Source: Candidatus Tectimicrobiota bacterium
Lineage (GTDB): Bacteria; JACPUC01
Reading direction: 5' to 3'
Assembly: GCA_016192455.1 (NCBI GenBank)
Contig: JACPUC010000003.1
Span: 301,082 to 365,081 of the forward strand
Length of the DNA: 64,000 bases
Positions 18,015 through 25,629 of the stretch are shown here, in pieces. Both the position numbers and the translations under genes were made by a program. Below the pieces are notes generated by a model. The model did not search any database. It was not told the DNA's origin and worked only from the letters and a program-made list of their open reading frames with translations. Every line of letters begins with the position of its first letter. The first letter of the stretch is position 1.

Positions 18015-18180
18015 TCACCTCCGCGCTCTCCGCGCCTCGGCGGTTCAATCAAATGCACCGCGGAGACGCGGAGGACGCGGAGAAGGGAGGGGAAGGAACC
18101 ACCGGTGGACACGGGTTCACCCAGCTATCAGTGTCCATCCGTGTTCATCAGTGGTTCCATGTTCATCAGTGGTTCGTTTT
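18015..18180. repeat. Second-family intergenic repeat
   Basis: A second copy of the same hairpin pair (CGCGCCTCGGCGGTTCAATC, ACCGCGGAGACGCGGAGG, then ATCAGTGTCCATCCGTGTTC), with a short direct duplication of GTTCATCAGTGGTT at the end. Confidence 0.65.
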
Positions 18181-18239
18181 TCGACAGAATGCCTACGGGA
18201 TAGGCTGGAGAAGGGCCGGCGAGGCTTGTGCCGTCGGCC

Positions 18240-18977
18240 TCAGCCCAGGTGGCGGTGCAGGAAGGCCAGGGTGCGCTGGAAAGCCGCCTCGGCGGCGCGC
18301 GGGTCGTAGTGTGTCGGCAAGGTGTCGTTGTGGAAGGCGTGCCGCGCCCCTGGTTGGATGACCAGCTCGAACGGCTTGTGGTACTTCCGCATCAGGCGCT
18401 CGATACGCCGTCCGGTGACCGCCGGCACGCAGGCGTCCTCGCCGCCGTAGAAGCTCAGCACCGGGCAGGTGATGGCGCGCAGGAGGGTGATGGGCGCGGG
18501 CGCGTTGCCGTAGAAGGAGACGGCGGCGCGCAGGCGCGGGTCGCTGGCGGCGAAGCGGTAGACTTGCTCGCCGCCCCAGCAGAAGCCGAGGGCCGCCAGC
18601 CCCGTCACCGACGGCTTGGCTTGCCGCAGGTACTCCGCGAAGGAGCGAGCCAGCCGCAGCATCTGCCGGGGGGGGACGCGGAGCGCCGTTGAGCAGGCTT
18701 CGTCCACGCGCTCGACCACCACGTGCCCGCCGAGGGCCAGGAGGAAAAAATCCGGCGCCATGGCGAGGTAGCCGGCGCGCGCCAGGCGCCGCGCCACGCC
18801 GCGCAGGTAGGGGGTGAGGCCGTACTTCTCGTGGAAGAGCAGGATGGCCGGGCGCGGGCGGTCGTCGTCGGGGCGCGCCTCGTAGGCGTAGGAGGTCTGG
18901 TCGTTGACGCGGAGCTGCACGAGGCCGCAGAGGAGCCCTTCCTCGCTCGCCGTGCTGCTGGGGGGAAGCTCTGCCAT
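18240..18977 (-). CDS. Dienelactone hydrolase family protein
   Basis: A 245-residue carboxymethylenebutenolidase-like hydrolase. The Cys nucleophile is in LGFCWGGEQVYRF, the acid in SFYGGEDACVPA and the His in ARHAFHND; the conserved Glu is in LLFHEKYGLTPYLR. The founding members open dienelactones in chlorocatechol and protoanemonin degradation, while many homologues have unknown esters as substrates. ATG 18977 marks the start of conservation; the long upstream open frame runs only through repeat sequence. It fits the aromatic-acid theme of the UbiD genes but is transcribed toward UbiD-1 across a repeat-filled gap. Confidence 0.92.
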   Translation of the reverse strand: MAELPPSSTASEEGLLCGLVQLRVNDQTSYAYEARPDDDRPRPAILLFHEKYGLTPYLRGVARRLARAGYLAMAPDFFLLALGGHVVVERVDEACSTALRVPPRQMLRLARSFAEYLRQAKPSVTGLAALGFCWGGEQVYRFAASDPRLRAAVSFYGNAPAPITLLRAITCPVLSFYGGEDACVPAVTGRRIERLMRKYHKPFELVIQPGARHAFHNDTLPTHYDPRAAEAAFQRTLAFLHRHLG

Positions 18978-18991
18978 GTGGTCATCTCGTC

Positions 18992-19367
18992 CTAGTGTTA
19001 CGGCAGACACATTCCATCCTTCATCGGACGCCTTCTTCGGGCCATGTGGTGGGGGAGTTTTTGCGGAAGACCCTCCGCCGCCGACGTGGCCGGAGACGAG
19101 CCGCTCCTCGGGAGATCCCGCCGCCGCGGCTAGGGGAATCGTCCGCAGATTACACGGATGACGCAGATTGAATCTGCGCAATCTGCGCAATCTGCGGATC
19201 ACTCGGGAGAGATCGTGAACCTGCGCGAATGCCTCGCCACGCGCCTCCTTTGTTTCCCCACACCCCCTGTTCCGTAGGGGCGGTTCGCGAACCGCCCCTA
19301 CCAGTCGGGGTGCGCGAGGGGGCGAGGCTCCCTCGCAAATTGTTGCGATAGAATTTGTGAAACAGCA
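18992..19367. repeat. Long modular repeat, reversed copy
   Basis: About 375 bases. From left: CTAGTGTTACGG terminus, the GGACGCCTTCTTCGGGCCAT segment, a TCCGCAGATTACACGGATGA module with an inner hairpin (CGCAGATTGAATCTGCG), the GGCGGTTCGCGAACCGCC palindrome at 19274-19301, and the CGAGGGGGCGAGGCTCCCTC end. It is the inverted counterpart of the copy at 24774-25152 and begins 15 bases upstream of the dienelactone hydrolase start. Confidence 0.75.
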
Positions 19368-19705
19368 CACGAGGCGCGGAGCGCCTCGCCCGTGGTTCGC
19401 GCCCGCCCCTCCTGCACTCCTCCAGCCAGCGTAAACTTTGGCGCGCGTCGCTGCAAGGGCTGAGGGCATGGCCGCGTCCGTTTGGAGGGGCGGAGGCGTC
19501 GGTTGTGAACAGGGGCGAGCGGGGAATGAATCTTGCTGTCGTTCCTGTTCGAGATGCTGTGTTCGCGCTGGCACGGGACCATGCGCGTGGCTATCTTGTA
19601 GAGTAAAGGGAGCGGCACGGGAGGCGTGGCGGCCGCGGCGTCTCGGCCGCCGGGGCGCCGGACACGGCCCGCGGGGTGACGCGCTCCACGGCAGAGGACC
19701 AGCGC

Positions 19706-21325
19706 ATGCTGGACGTCTACATCGCAGGAGCCGGCATGACGCGCTTCGGGAAGCGCCCGGAGCCGCTCAGCGTCCTGGTGCGCGAGGCCGCCGAGATGGC
19801 CCTGCGCGCCGCCGGCCAGGGGGCGGTGGAGGCCCTCTACGTCGGCGTCATGAATGCCGAGCAGTTCACCGGCGACAGCAACGTCGCCAGCGAGCTGGTG
19901 GACGCGCTCGATCTCACCGGCATCCCGGCGGTGCGCCTGGAGACCGCTTCGGCGACCGGGGCGGCGGTCTTCCACGCCGCGGCCCAGGCGGTGGCGGCGC
20001 GGGTGTACCAGAGCGTGCTGGTGGTGGCGGGCGAGAAGATGACCGATCGGCCGGCGCCGCTGGTCACCGGCATCCTCGCCGAGGTGCTCGATCGCGACGA
20101 ACGCCTCTGCGGCCTCAGCATGCCCGCCGCGGCGGCGCTGATCACCCTGCGCTACGCCAGCGAGCAGCGCCTGACGCCCGAGCAGCTCAGCAAGGTGCTG
20201 GCGCGCATCGCCGTGAAGAACCACGCGAACGGCGCCCTCAACCCCTATGCGCAGTTCCGCCAGGGCCTCAGCGAGGAGCACTACCTGAGAAGCGCCTTCG
20301 TGGCGGACCCCCTGCGCCTCTACGATTGCGCCCCGATCTCGGACGGCGCGGCGGCGCTGGTCCTCACCTCGACGCCGCGCCCCGTGCGCGTGCTGGGGCT
20401 GGGGAACGGCACCGACTACGTGGCGCTGCGGCTGCGGCGCAGCCTCACCTCCTTCGAGGCCACCAGGCGGGCGGCGGAGCTGGCCTTCCGCATGGCGCGC
20501 CTCACCCCGGCGGCGATTGACCTGGCCGAGGTGCACGACGCCTTCACCTCGTTCGAGCTGATCGGCTGCGAGGACCTGGGTCTCTTCGCCCCCGGCGAGG
20601 CCCTGAAGGAAATGGAACGGGGCGCCACCGAGCTGCGCGGGCGACTCCCCGTCAATCCCTCCGGCGGCCTCAAGGCGCGCGGCCATCCGGTGGGGGCGTC
20701 CGGCCTGGCGCAGATCGTCGAGCTCACCTGGCAGCTCGAGCAGTCCCTCCCCGCCGAGCGCCGCGTGCCGCGCGCCGAGTGCGCCCTCGCCCAGAGCATC
20801 GGCGGGCTGGCGAGCAACAACTTCGTCACCATCCTGGGCAAATCGCGCGCCGGGCCGCTCGCCGCGGCGGGGCGGTGGAGCAGCGCCGCGCCGCGGGCCG
20901 TTGCCGACTCCGCCAAGGGTGGTGCCGGTGCCAATGGGGCGCGGCGGTCGAGCGGGGCCCCGAGCCAGGGGGGCGAGCGGCCGAAGGCGCGCCCGCGGCA
21001 GGAAGGCATCGACGCCGTGGGCGAGGTGGAGACCTTCACCATCTCGCGCCGACCGCCGGCGGGGTTCCCCGCGCCGCTCGTGCTGGCGATCGTGCGCGAC
21101 CGCTTCGGACGGCGAGCCGTGGCGCGGACGCGGAACAATTTGCCGGTGCGCATCGGCCAGCAGGTCTACATCACCACGAAGGGGGGCGTCCACGAGCTGG
21201 CGCCGAAGAGCAGGCTGCGCCGCCTCGGCGTCCTGGCGCGGCGGCAGTATCGACGCCTCAGGCAGCGTCTGCCGGGTGGCGTGCGCCGCGCCGCGAGCGA
21301 TGACGCGGCGGGACGCGCCGCCTGA
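19706..21325 (+). CDS. Thiolase-like protein fused to DUF35-type OB domain
   Basis: A 539-residue fusion. Residues 1 to about 385 are an SCP-x/thiolase-like domain (start LDVYIAGAGMTRFGK, EVHDAFTSFE, NPSGGLKARGHPVGASG, AQSIGGLASNNFVTILG). After a low-complexity linker, about residues 435-510 are an OB fold like the C-terminal part of DUF35/ChsH2 proteins (VGEVETFTISRRPPAGFPAP, then PVRIGQQVYI). At the nucleophile position, the family's E-x-A-C-A-S-G reads ETASATGAA, so Ser82 replaces Cys. Thiolase-DUF35 pairs form acetoacetyl-CoA thiolase complexes and steroid side-chain aldolases (Ltp2/ChsH2); the missing Cys favours an aldolase-like or other non-thiolytic role. The start at ATG 19706 follows GAGGACC. 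Confidence 0.85.
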   Translation: MLDVYIAGAGMTRFGKRPEPLSVLVREAAEMALRAAGQGAVEALYVGVMNAEQFTGDSNVASELVDALDLTGIPAVRLETASATGAAVFHAAAQAVAARVYQSVLVVAGEKMTDRPAPLVTGILAEVLDRDERLCGLSMPAAAALITLRYASEQRLTPEQLSKVLARIAVKNHANGALNPYAQFRQGLSEEHYLRSAFVADPLRLYDCAPISDGAAALVLTSTPRPVRVLGLGNGTDYVALRLRRSLTSFEATRRAAELAFRMARLTPAAIDLAEVHDAFTSFELIGCEDLGLFAPGEALKEMERGATELRGRLPVNPSGGLKARGHPVGASGLAQIVELTWQLEQSLPAERRVPRAECALAQSIGGLASNNFVTILGKSRAGPLAAAGRWSSAAPRAVADSAKGGAGANGARRSSGAPSQGGERPKARPRQEGIDAVGEVETFTISRRPPAGFPAPLVLAIVRDRFGRRAVARTRNNLPVRIGQQVYITTKGGVHELAPKSRLRRLGVLARRQYRRLRQRLPGGVRRAASDDAAGRAA

Positions 21326-21388: not shown

Positions 21389-21850
21389 TCACTCCTCCTC
21401 GATGGCGCCGCTGAAGGAGAGGGCGATGCCGCGCTTCACGCTGTTGGCGGCCGGGCAGCCCGCCTCATGCACGGCGAGGGCGCGCTCGGCCTCCCGCCGT
21501 TTCCCTTTCGGCACCTTCACGTGGTAGGTGATGCGGATGTCGGTGATGAGGGGCCGGCCGTCAACCTTCTCGATGACGCCCTCGACCTCGGACCAGAGCT
21601 TGTTCGGTGAGCTGGGTATGCCGCGCGCCTCCAGCGCGCCCCCGAGGGTGCCGGTCATTCAGCCGGCGACGGCGGCGATGAGATGGTCGAGGGTGGTGGG
21701 GCGGTCCTCCACCGCGTCGAGGCCGTACAGGTGCTTGATGCCGCCGTGCACGCCGTAGGTGATGGGCTCGAAACCCTCGATGTAGGCGCGGCGGATGGGG
21801 GTCGCGTCCTTGTAGATTTTTACCCTCGTGGTGTGCAGAATCTCTCCCAT
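21389..21850 (-). CDS. OsmC-family protein, probable selenoprotein (in-frame UGA)
   Basis: Reading leftward from ATG 21850 (strong GGAGGAG before it), 63 codons end in LDHLIAAVAG, then TGA (21659-21661), then the same frame continues MTGTLGGALEARGI through to the real stop at 21389: 153 residues in all. In OsmC/Ohr peroxidases the motif is A-A-x-A-G-C-x-T, so the UGA falls exactly on the peroxidatic Cys (position 64). The second, resolving Cys is intact at 132 in HEAGCPAANSVKRG. A 6-bp stem with a UGGAG loop lies 19 bases after the UGA. Selenocysteine insertion is the best reading; a nonsense mutation is the alternative. Role: reduction of organic or fatty-acid hydroperoxides in the cytoplasm. 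Confidence 0.85.
21623..21639 (-). promoter_or_regulatory. Candidate bacterial SECIS hairpin
   Basis: In the RNA, GCGCGC-UGGAG-GCGCGC starts 19 nucleotides after the UGA. Bacterial SECIS elements need a short hairpin about 16-37 nucleotides downstream, with G among the first two loop bases; both hold (loop U-G-G-A-G). The stem is also compatible with alternative GC pairings because the region is GC-rich. Confidence 0.6.
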
Positions 21851-22087
21851 GGGCTCCTCCTGAACTGTGGCGCGGGCGTCGGCGGGGCGCGCGTTGCTGG
21901 GGGCGCGCCGCGGTTGGTCGTACTGTAGCAACTCCGCGCCCCGACGCGCAAAGGTCCTGTGCGGCCGGGAGCGCGCTGCGGCGGCGCCTCGGCGCCGGGG
22001 GCTTGTTCCGCTGCCGCAGGGTTCACTACAATAGGAGGGCCGGCAGAAGAGTTTCCCGCAGGACGCTTGCGCTGACGAGGTTCCGCC

Positions 22088-23110
22088 ATGCCTGCCAACC
22101 TCACCCCGCAGTACCACGCCGCCGAGCAGGTCTTCCGCGAGGCGAAGACGACGGAGGAGAAGATTGCCGGGCTCGAGGAGATGCTGCGGCTCATCCCGAA
22201 GCATAAGGGGAGCGAGAAGCTGCAGGCCGATCTGAAGAGGCGGCTCTCGAAGCTGCGGCATGAGGAGCAGAAGACAGCGGGGGGCAAGCGCGCCGGGCAC
22301 CGCATTCCGCGGCAGGGAGCGGGGCAGGTGCCCCTCGTCGGCGCGCCGAACGTCGGCAAATCGGCGCTGCTGTGCGCTCTCACCCAGGCCAGGTCCGAGG
22401 TGGCCCCCTACCCGATGACCACCTTCACGCCGACGCCGGGGATGATGCCGTTCGAGGATGTCCAGATTCAGCTCATCGACCTGCCGCCGTTGCTGGCGGA
22501 CCACGTGGAGTCCTGGGTCTTCGAGCTCATTCGGCCGGCGGACCTTCTCCTCCTCCTGGTCGATCTCACCGCGGTCGATCCGCTCCAGCAGGTGGACGGC
22601 GTGTGCGAGCAGCTCGCCGGCAAGCGCATCGCCGTGTATGGGGCGCCTGCCTGCGGGGGGACCGGCAACGGGCCGGAGGGGATAGGGGAGGCGCCGCCGG
22701 GCGGCGTGGCGAAGCCGACGCTCCTCGTCGGCACGAAGCTCGATGGCGCCAAGGCGGACGACAACGCAGACTTCCTGCGGGAGTACTACGCCGGGCGCTT
22801 CCCGTTCGTCGCCGTCACGATCGCGGATGCCCCGACCCTCGAAAGCTTCCGCAGGACCGTCTTCACGGCGCTCAGGGTGTTGCGCGTCTACACCAAGGCG
22901 CCGGGCAGGAAAGAGGAGCGCGGCGTCCCCTACGTGCTGCCGCAGGGCTCGACGGTGTGGGAGGTGGCGAATCTCGTGCACAAGGAGGTGGCGGCGAGCC
23001 TGAAGTATGCCCGCATCTGGGGGGCGCGCGCCTATGATGGGCAGCGGGTGACGCGCGACTACGTCGTGCAGGATGGGGACCTCATCGAGCTGCATGTCGG
23101 CGGCGCCTGA
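22088..23110 (+). CDS. DRG-like GTPase with TGS domain
   Basis: A 340-residue translational-type GTPase resembling archaeal/eukaryotic DRG proteins. A helical N-terminus (KIAGLEEMLRLIPKHKGSEK) is followed by the G domain: G1 LVGAPNVGKSALL, a switch region TPTPGMMPFEDVQIQLIDLPP as G3, and G4 VGTKLDG. A C-terminal TGS domain (LPQGSTVWEVANLVHKEV ... YVVQDGDLIELHVGG) closes it. The G3 Gly is replaced (DLPP instead of DLPG). DRG proteins bind ribosomes with a partner; the bacterial relatives are barely studied. ATG 22088 follows GAGGTTCC. It is divergent from the OsmC gene, 237 bases away. Confidence 0.85.
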   Translation: MPANLTPQYHAAEQVFREAKTTEEKIAGLEEMLRLIPKHKGSEKLQADLKRRLSKLRHEEQKTAGGKRAGHRIPRQGAGQVPLVGAPNVGKSALLCALTQARSEVAPYPMTTFTPTPGMMPFEDVQIQLIDLPPLLADHVESWVFELIRPADLLLLLVDLTAVDPLQQVDGVCEQLAGKRIAVYGAPACGGTGNGPEGIGEAPPGGVAKPTLLVGTKLDGAKADDNADFLREYYAGRFPFVAVTIADAPTLESFRRTVFTALRVLRVYTKAPGRKEERGVPYVLPQGSTVWEVANLVHKEVAASLKYARIWGARAYDGQRVTRDYVVQDGDLIELHVGGA

Positions 23111-23190: not shown

Positions 23191-23380
23191 CCTCCGCCTC
23201 CGCGCTCTCCGCGCCTCCGCGGTTACATGGATTGCACCGCGGAGACGCAGAGGACGCGGAGAAGGGAGAGGAAGAAACAACCGGTGGACGCGGGTTCACA
23301 CAAATATCAGTGTCCATCCGTGTTCATCAGTGGTTCTTTGCATCCCGCTGGTAGGGGCGGTTCGCGAACCGCCCCTACGG
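23191..23380. repeat. Second-family intergenic repeat plus palindrome module
   Basis: The family-two hairpin pair (CTCCGCGCCTCCGCGG ... CCGCGGAGACGCAGAGGACG; GTGGACGCGGGTTCAC ... CAGTGTCCATCCGTGTTCAT), with GGCGGTTCGCGAACCGCC appended at 23351-23378. Directly downstream of the DRG-like GTPase. Confidence 0.65.
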
Positions 23381-23498
23381 TCACCGGGCGGCGCGCCTGC
23401 TGCTTACAAAACAGGCTCGGAGGCGATTGAGGTCACGTGGCGGTGAGGCGGACGGTCCTACCCAATGTGCGCCAGGCTGGACGCCTGTCCGGCACGCT

Positions 23499-23676
23499 CA
23501 GCGCTCTCCGCGCCTCCGCGGTTCAATCGAATGCACCGCGGAGACGCAGAGGACGCGGAGAAGGCAAGGGAAAGAACCACGGATAGACACGGATGTACAC
23601 AGATATCAGTGTCCATCCGTGTTCATCAGTGGTTCTTGGCATCTCGCTGGTAGGGGCGGGGCTTGCCCCGCCCTCC
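23499..23676. repeat. Second-family intergenic repeat, adjacent copy
   Basis: A near-identical copy of the preceding repeat, but with the GGGCGGGGCTTGCCCCGCCC palindrome in place of the GGTTCGCGAACC one, showing that the middle palindromes are interchangeable parts. The 23677-23875 remainder shows nothing else. Confidence 0.65.
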
Positions 23677-24757: not shown

Positions 24758-24773
24758 GCGGAGGCGGGGCCAG

Positions 24774-25152
24774 TGTGCTGTTTCACACAATCTATCGCAA
24801 GAATTTGCGAGGGAGCCTCGCCCTCTCGCGCACCCCTCACCCCTGGCCCCTCTCCCAATGGGAGAGGGAACGGGTGAGGGAGGGGTGTGGGGAAGCAAAG
24901 GAGGCGCGTGGCGAGGCGTTCGCGCAGGTTCACGATCTCTCCCGAGTGATCCGCAGATTTCGCAGATTGCGCAAATTCAATCTGCGTCATCCGTGTAATC
25001 TGCGGACGATTCCCCTAGCCGCGGCGGCGGCGGGAGCTCCAGAGGAGCGGCTCGTCTCCGGCCACGTCGGCGGCGGAGGGTCTGCCGCAAAAACTCCGCC
25101 ACCACATGGCCCGAAGAAGGCGTCCGATGAAGGATGGAATTGGTGTGACGCA
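24774..25152. repeat. Long modular repeat, forward copy
   Basis: It begins AGTGTGCTGTTTCACACAAT, continues with CGAGGGAGCCTCGCCCTCTC, the CTCTCCCAATGGGAGAG palindrome, the TCCGCAGATT/AATCTGCG module, and the GGCCCGAAGAAGGCGTCCGA right end, finishing near GTGTGACGCAACTC. Inverted relative to 18992-19367. Confidence 0.75.
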
Positions 25153-25629
25153 ACTCTCGACGGCGGCGGCGACAAGGGAGGCCCCGGCGGACAGCGCGCC
25201 CGCCGCGGCTGGACGCGAAAAATTGCCCAAATCCCGAAGTTTTGGTTCAACAAGATGCGACATTGTGTCGATATGTCTTAGAGCACGGAGGGCCGGGGGC
25301 TGACCTGACGCTGGAGGGCGACCGGGGGTGTGATCCGTCTCGCCTTCTGCCGGCCTTGCGATCCCTCGTGGCAAGCAGGGCTGGGGCGGGCCGCCGGTTC
25401 GCGCCCCCGCACGGAGGTGGAGGGCGACTTCGAAGGGCACGACCAGGGCTGCCGGGGCGCGCGGCCGGCGCGGAGCCGGGCTTCACGCCCCTGGCTGGCG
25501 CGGCAGGAAGGCTTGCCCAGAGCCGCGAGTTGATGGTGTGCCTGATGCTGCGGGGCGGTGGCTGTGAGAAAGTATGCGCCGAGACGACGTGATGACGCCG
25601 GAGTAGAGCTGCAACGCGGCGAAGCATGG
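25153..25629. other. Intergenic region, nothing recognised
   Basis: About 480 bases between the repeat and the response regulator. Open frames here have no recognisable protein content. The response-regulator gene may start as early as GTG 25558. Confidence 0.4.

Follow-up and report, generated by a model that had tools for sequence, protein, structure and literature searches.

Does an OsmC-type reading frame with TGA in place of the codon for the peroxidatic cysteine encode a selenoprotein, and does it belong to the kind of OsmC-like selenoprotein that is already catalogued? The question is raised by a locus in the window, the whole stretch of 64,000 nucleotides analyzed in this study. A preliminary description had placed there an uninterrupted OsmC frame with a single TGA, preceded by a strong ribosome-binding site. 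Its coordinates are correct, and both the frame, on the minus strand, and the AGGAGG element were recovered. The features of the gene, here called Sec-OsmC, are as follows.

21389..21850, minus strand: CDS of the predicted OsmC-family selenoprotein, 153 aa, ATG at 21850, ending with TGA at 21391..21389
21659..21661, minus strand: in-frame UGA, predicted Sec residue 64, at the peroxidatic-Cys position
21455..21457, minus strand: codon of Cys132, the putative resolving Cys, invariant in 60 aligned homologues
21856..21861, minus strand: AGGAGG ribosome-binding site, 5 nt upstream of the ATG
21623..21639, minus strand: SECIS-type hairpin GCGCGC-UGGAG-GCGCGC, loop 21633..21629, 25 nt after the UGA

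The TGA at codon 64 is the only internal one, and translation with this codon as Sec gives MGEILHTT...AAVAG-U-MTGTLGG...HEAGCPAAN...EEE, followed by a TGA stop. A genuine stop at codon 64 would leave a 63-residue fragment, or two separately translated ORFs, and the ATG directly after the UGA does permit an ORF of 89 aa. However, the OsmC domain match (PF02566, 47.7 bits with a cut-off of 27.5) covers residues 49-145 and runs across the UGA. Moreover, the codon after the UGA is often CTN or TTG in the relatives described below, so the second ATG start is not conserved, and the hairpin and the Cys replacements found among them are sensible only with Sec. A true stop is thus regarded as very unlikely.

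The gene is flanked by a convergent thiolase gene (19676-21325) and a divergent gene for a TGS-domain GTPase (22088-23110), and therefore looks monocistronic. The surrounding region also contains repeats. Three copies of a 177-nt intergenic repeat family, 77-85% identical, are located at 18019-18195, 23198-23374 and 23497-23673. Two copies of a long inverted repeat, at 18971-19370 and 24773-25180, bracket about 5.5 kb including the Sec-OsmC gene; their arms comprise 149 nt at 97%, 160 nt at 86% and 64 nt at 94% complementarity, and the repeat is a dispersed one.

The machinery for selenocysteine incorporation, which the preliminary description had named as a check, was found complete in the source genome, a draft of 4.46 Mb in 31 contigs and 88% complete. 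A tRNA-Sec gene (selC) was detected at 75.5 bits, in agreement with ARAGORN (tRNA-SeC, anticodon tca), and selA (596 bits) adjoins selB (366 bits) on the same contig. The selD gene (389 bits; L022, G000:C3:190907-191827) carries an in-frame TGA of its own within AG-U-AAK. UxxK is a known Sec site of SelD (PMC13188914), and this selD probably encodes a selenoprotein in its own right. A reassigned genetic code was rejected, because the Sec-OsmC gene itself stops at TGA and UGA is thus not globally reassigned in this genome.

Relatives were sought in other phyla, because the source genome is the sole representative of its order, class and phylum in the genome collection; another genome, G032, is also the only one of its phylum there. 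No relative was found with the Sec-OsmC protein as a single query against the genome contigs, or in a search of the plasmid collection. A first search covered 386 genomes of other phyla. Its 15 top-scoring foreign matches, from 14 genomes and with 34-63% identity, contain exactly one TGA each, and matches free of TGA begin much lower, at E 3e-7. A second search of 387 genomes with a profile (A1) yielded 75 TGA loci scoring from 66 to 246 bits; the canonical OsmC matches, all without TGA, reach at most 42 bits. An in-frame TGA is carried by 75 of the 76 close relatives. The sole exception (L125, G467:C204) is intact as far as the codon preceding the Sec site, then continues into unrelated sequence, and was judged to be broken or misassembled, not a Cys form.

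Conservation of the UGA was established by aligning these loci. The TGA occupies the identical column in 62 of 62 loci examined, including the source locus, although two pairs in this set (L057/L099 and L059/L111) are the same place counted twice and 53 distinct 45-mers are represented. The motif of the Sec site across the set is [GSA]-U-[ML]-[TYVMF]-G-[TN], with U-x-x-G in every locus. Among 60 aligned proteins, T53, D55, G67, L73, G91 and Y109 are invariant together with Cys132 and the Sec/Cys position. One further locus (L133, G397:C79) has an extra TAG in its N-terminal part and is a probable pseudogene or error.

These relatives also bear on an alternative reading, in which the UGA arose by faulty sequencing or by nonsense mutation of a decaying gene; the single gene copy in a fragmented and incomplete draft could be cited in its favour. 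The preliminary description had proposed to look in relatives for decay after the UGA; their frame stays open, neither frameshifted nor degraded, the second Cys is kept, and the TGA is common to them. With so many TGA-bearing homologues, sequencing error and pseudogene were ruled out, and the probability left to such an accident is negligible.

The bacterial SECIS model specifies a loop of 3-9 nt, a stem of 4-16 bp, G as one of the first two loop nucleotides, a distance of 16-37 nt from the UGA and a minimum free energy of at most -7.5 kcal/mol (PMC13188914). The Sec-OsmC hairpin begins 19 nt after the UGA and lies within all of these limits, with the loop UGGAG, 6 bp, G as the second loop nucleotide, 25 nt and -10.3 kcal/mol. 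The position and the loop G are as described before, but stability above chance was not found in the source sequence alone: its 52 nt are not more stable than shuffled versions (z +1.1), their minimum-energy fold is a different one, and synonymous shuffling of this gene gave no significant signal (z -0.4 at +1). A search of Rfam gave no match. Since the folding signal is absent in the source sequence alone, the case for the hairpin rests on comparison.

The mean synonymous-shuffle folding z is lowest immediately after the UGA (-1.23). In the first hairpin register, represented by 30 distinct sequences, 98.3% of cells are paired, versus 12-67% when the register is slid. One pair of this hairpin alternates among G-C (18), C-G (9) and A-U (3); the change on its 5' side is silent (Ala codon +8) and the change on its 3' side replaces Ala by Gly or Val at +11. 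In the alignment this switching pair reads as true compensation, on two branches. Another clade has its hairpin one register earlier, with arms CGCUAGC/GCUAGCG and 93.8% of cells paired, without changes on both sides. Here CTA is used in 36 of 48 Leu codons at +5 and +9, versus 3 of 146 other Leu codons, and the two codons co-vary (CTA/CTA 17, CTG/CTG 4), all counts coming from related genomes and hence not independent. Such synonymous-codon usage supplies most of the evidence for the second hairpin. At least 5 of 6 or at least 6 of 7 pairs are formed in one of the two registers in 58 of the 62 loci; the remaining four (L062, L068, L096 and L129) have no good match to either. Comparison of the loci thus indicates that compensatory changes maintain the hairpin, or else that a second one, composed of otherwise avoided CTA codons, stands in its place.

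Exchange between Sec and Cys was established by scanning the genomes of 84,980 species for the Cys form of the motif, using a single pattern of nine to ten residues, so that Cys forms are possibly under-counted. Four true relatives were obtained, all with TGC at the Sec site: two Acidobacteriota MAGs (51% and 46%; Terriglobia, Bryobacterales) and two Streptosporangiaceae (40% and 39%; Spongiactinospora, Nonomuraea). These proteins possess the motif GC[LM]TGT as in the Sec forms, but have TGC for TGA, and neither hairpin register is fully retained. In a maximum-likelihood tree the Sec-OsmC subfamily is set apart from canonical OsmC with support of 100/100. The Cys rows are found in two places of this tree, and the Sec/Cys labels need three changes, which fits a single gain of Sec with two losses, without establishing the direction of change.

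A structure predicted by AlphaFold2 with the 60-row alignment (pLDDT 96.1) displays the OsmC fold. The OsmC/Ohr family fills the top 34 rows of the structure comparison (Z 14.9 to 7.9), led by 2onf_A (Z 14.9, rmsd 2.1, 138 residues), 1ml8 (Z 14.0) and T. thermophilus OsmC (Z 13.2). In an alignment with T. thermophilus OsmC (1ukk), residue 64 matches the peroxidatic Cys and residue 132 the second Cys, which agrees with the earlier placement of the UGA at the peroxidatic Cys and with an intact second Cys at 132. Compared with E. coli OsmC, T. thermophilus OsmC and X. fastidiosa Ohr, the protein shares the fold (Z about 12-13) and the peroxidatic and resolving Cys positions, but it has Sec for Cys, shows 12-18% structural sequence identity and falls into a separate clade. 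The catalytic Glu appears to be replaced by or shifted to Asp55, which is invariant near the catalytic-Glu position, and Arg is not clearly kept, with no fully invariant Arg in the 60 rows.

The peroxidatic Cys of Ohr acts together with an Arg and a Glu; its sulfenic acid is resolved by the second Cys, and a lipoylated protein serves as reductant (PMC5962072). By analogy with Ohr, Sec64 is assigned as the attacking selenolate and Cys132 as the resolving thiol. With the downstream hairpin as signal, SelB and Sec-tRNA(Sec) would decode codon 64 (UGA) and place selenocysteine at the peroxidatic-Cys position. The Sec64 selenolate would then probably attack a hydroperoxide, or an electrophilic oxidant related to it; Cys132 would resolve the resulting selenenic acid to a selenenylsulfide, which would in turn be reduced by a cellular dithiol. 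We infer the actual insertion of Sec at UGA64, as well as the peroxidase activity, its substrate and its reductant.

The name OsmC peroxidase, used in the preliminary description, is therefore to be divided: membership in the OsmC family is supported by the domain match and the fold, and peroxidase is inferred from that membership. Peroxidase action is likely by analogy, and it is uncertain because conservation of Ohr's Arg/Glu pair is not evident. An OsmC-fold selenoprotein might instead carry out a non-peroxide reaction, such as thiol transfer, dehalogenation, or the handling of sulfur or selenium. Besides the Arg/Glu pair, this is suggested by OsmC relatives such as YhfA, which are without known activity (PMC5962072), and by the gene neighbourhoods of the subfamily, where no neighbour is kept beyond close kin and no conserved neighbour points to peroxide stress. 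On the other hand, both redox positions of the peroxidases are kept, and the invariant Asp55 lies beside the catalytic-Glu position. A non-peroxide reaction is a serious but minority possibility. We hold with high confidence that the gene encodes an OsmC/Ohr-fold selenoprotein in which UGA64 is read as Sec by means of the hairpin, likely with peroxidase-type Sec64/Cys132 chemistry. The probable selenoprotein proposed at the outset is thus supported by the conservation of the UGA, the Sec machinery and the comparative evidence for the hairpin.

OsmC-like selenoproteins were predicted in 2005 from three Sargasso Sea sequences (PMC1088965), so that the earlier statement on such proteins in environmental data is correct, though they belong to a different subfamily. 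They were catalogued in 2008 with the motif UxxT. An inventory of 2026 comprises 119 families and subfamilies, in which a differing motif denotes a differing subfamily, and holds a single OsmC entry, UxxT (PMC13188914). The Sec-OsmC subfamily is missing from this inventory and from NCBIfam, as far as the open-licence literature is concerned. The NCBIfam model NF041052 (OsmC_like_Se, cut-off 95 bits), which from its name and motif presumably represents the published UxxT family, has no match to the Sec-OsmC protein at E<=0.01.

The same genome possesses a second OsmC-type gene (L003 1336-1845, plus strand; G000:C6, about 8.1-8.6 kb) with one in-frame TGA and the motif U-LLT, a UxxT motif. The Sec-OsmC gene could be a plain member of the catalogued family, since it belongs to the same Pfam family, has Sec at the same functional position, and 48 of the 60 subfamily members match NF041052 weakly (best E 2.3e-6). 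However, NF041052 matches the L003 protein (156.8 bits) and not the Sec-OsmC protein, the two proteins have no similarity in BLASTP, and the glycine of U-x-x-G is present throughout the aligned loci; such membership is accordingly improbable. The OsmC fold, the predicted Sec at the peroxidatic-Cys site and a bacterial SECIS after the UGA are common to the UxxT type (PMC1088965; NF041052) and to Sec-OsmC, which is set apart by its UxxG motif, the NF041052 model and comparison with L003. From the UxxG motif and the lack of both an NF041052 match and BLASTP similarity to L003, a second, unlisted subfamily of OsmC selenoproteins was recognized.

Judged from its sequence and those of its relatives, the gene is a real selenoprotein gene of a distinct and widespread OsmC subfamily, unlisted in the 2026 review and in NCBIfam. 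A broader proposal is held only tentatively, at slightly less than even confidence: the proteins may form a separate OsmC subfamily of many uncultured lineages, in which Sec is the rule and Cys a rare secondary state in at least two lineages, with a selenium-dependent reaction and two swappable hairpin registers.

Annotation regularly breaks selenoprotein genes into pieces. As a subfamily with about 75 members in the searched genomes is missing from both the inventory and NCBIfam, the selenoprotein sets of several little-studied lineages are under-counted. The two hairpin registers, preserved by compensations both synonymous and amino-acid-changing, constitute a natural data set for recognition by bacterial SelB, and the rare Cys sister proteins permit a direct comparison of Sec with Cys within one enzyme.
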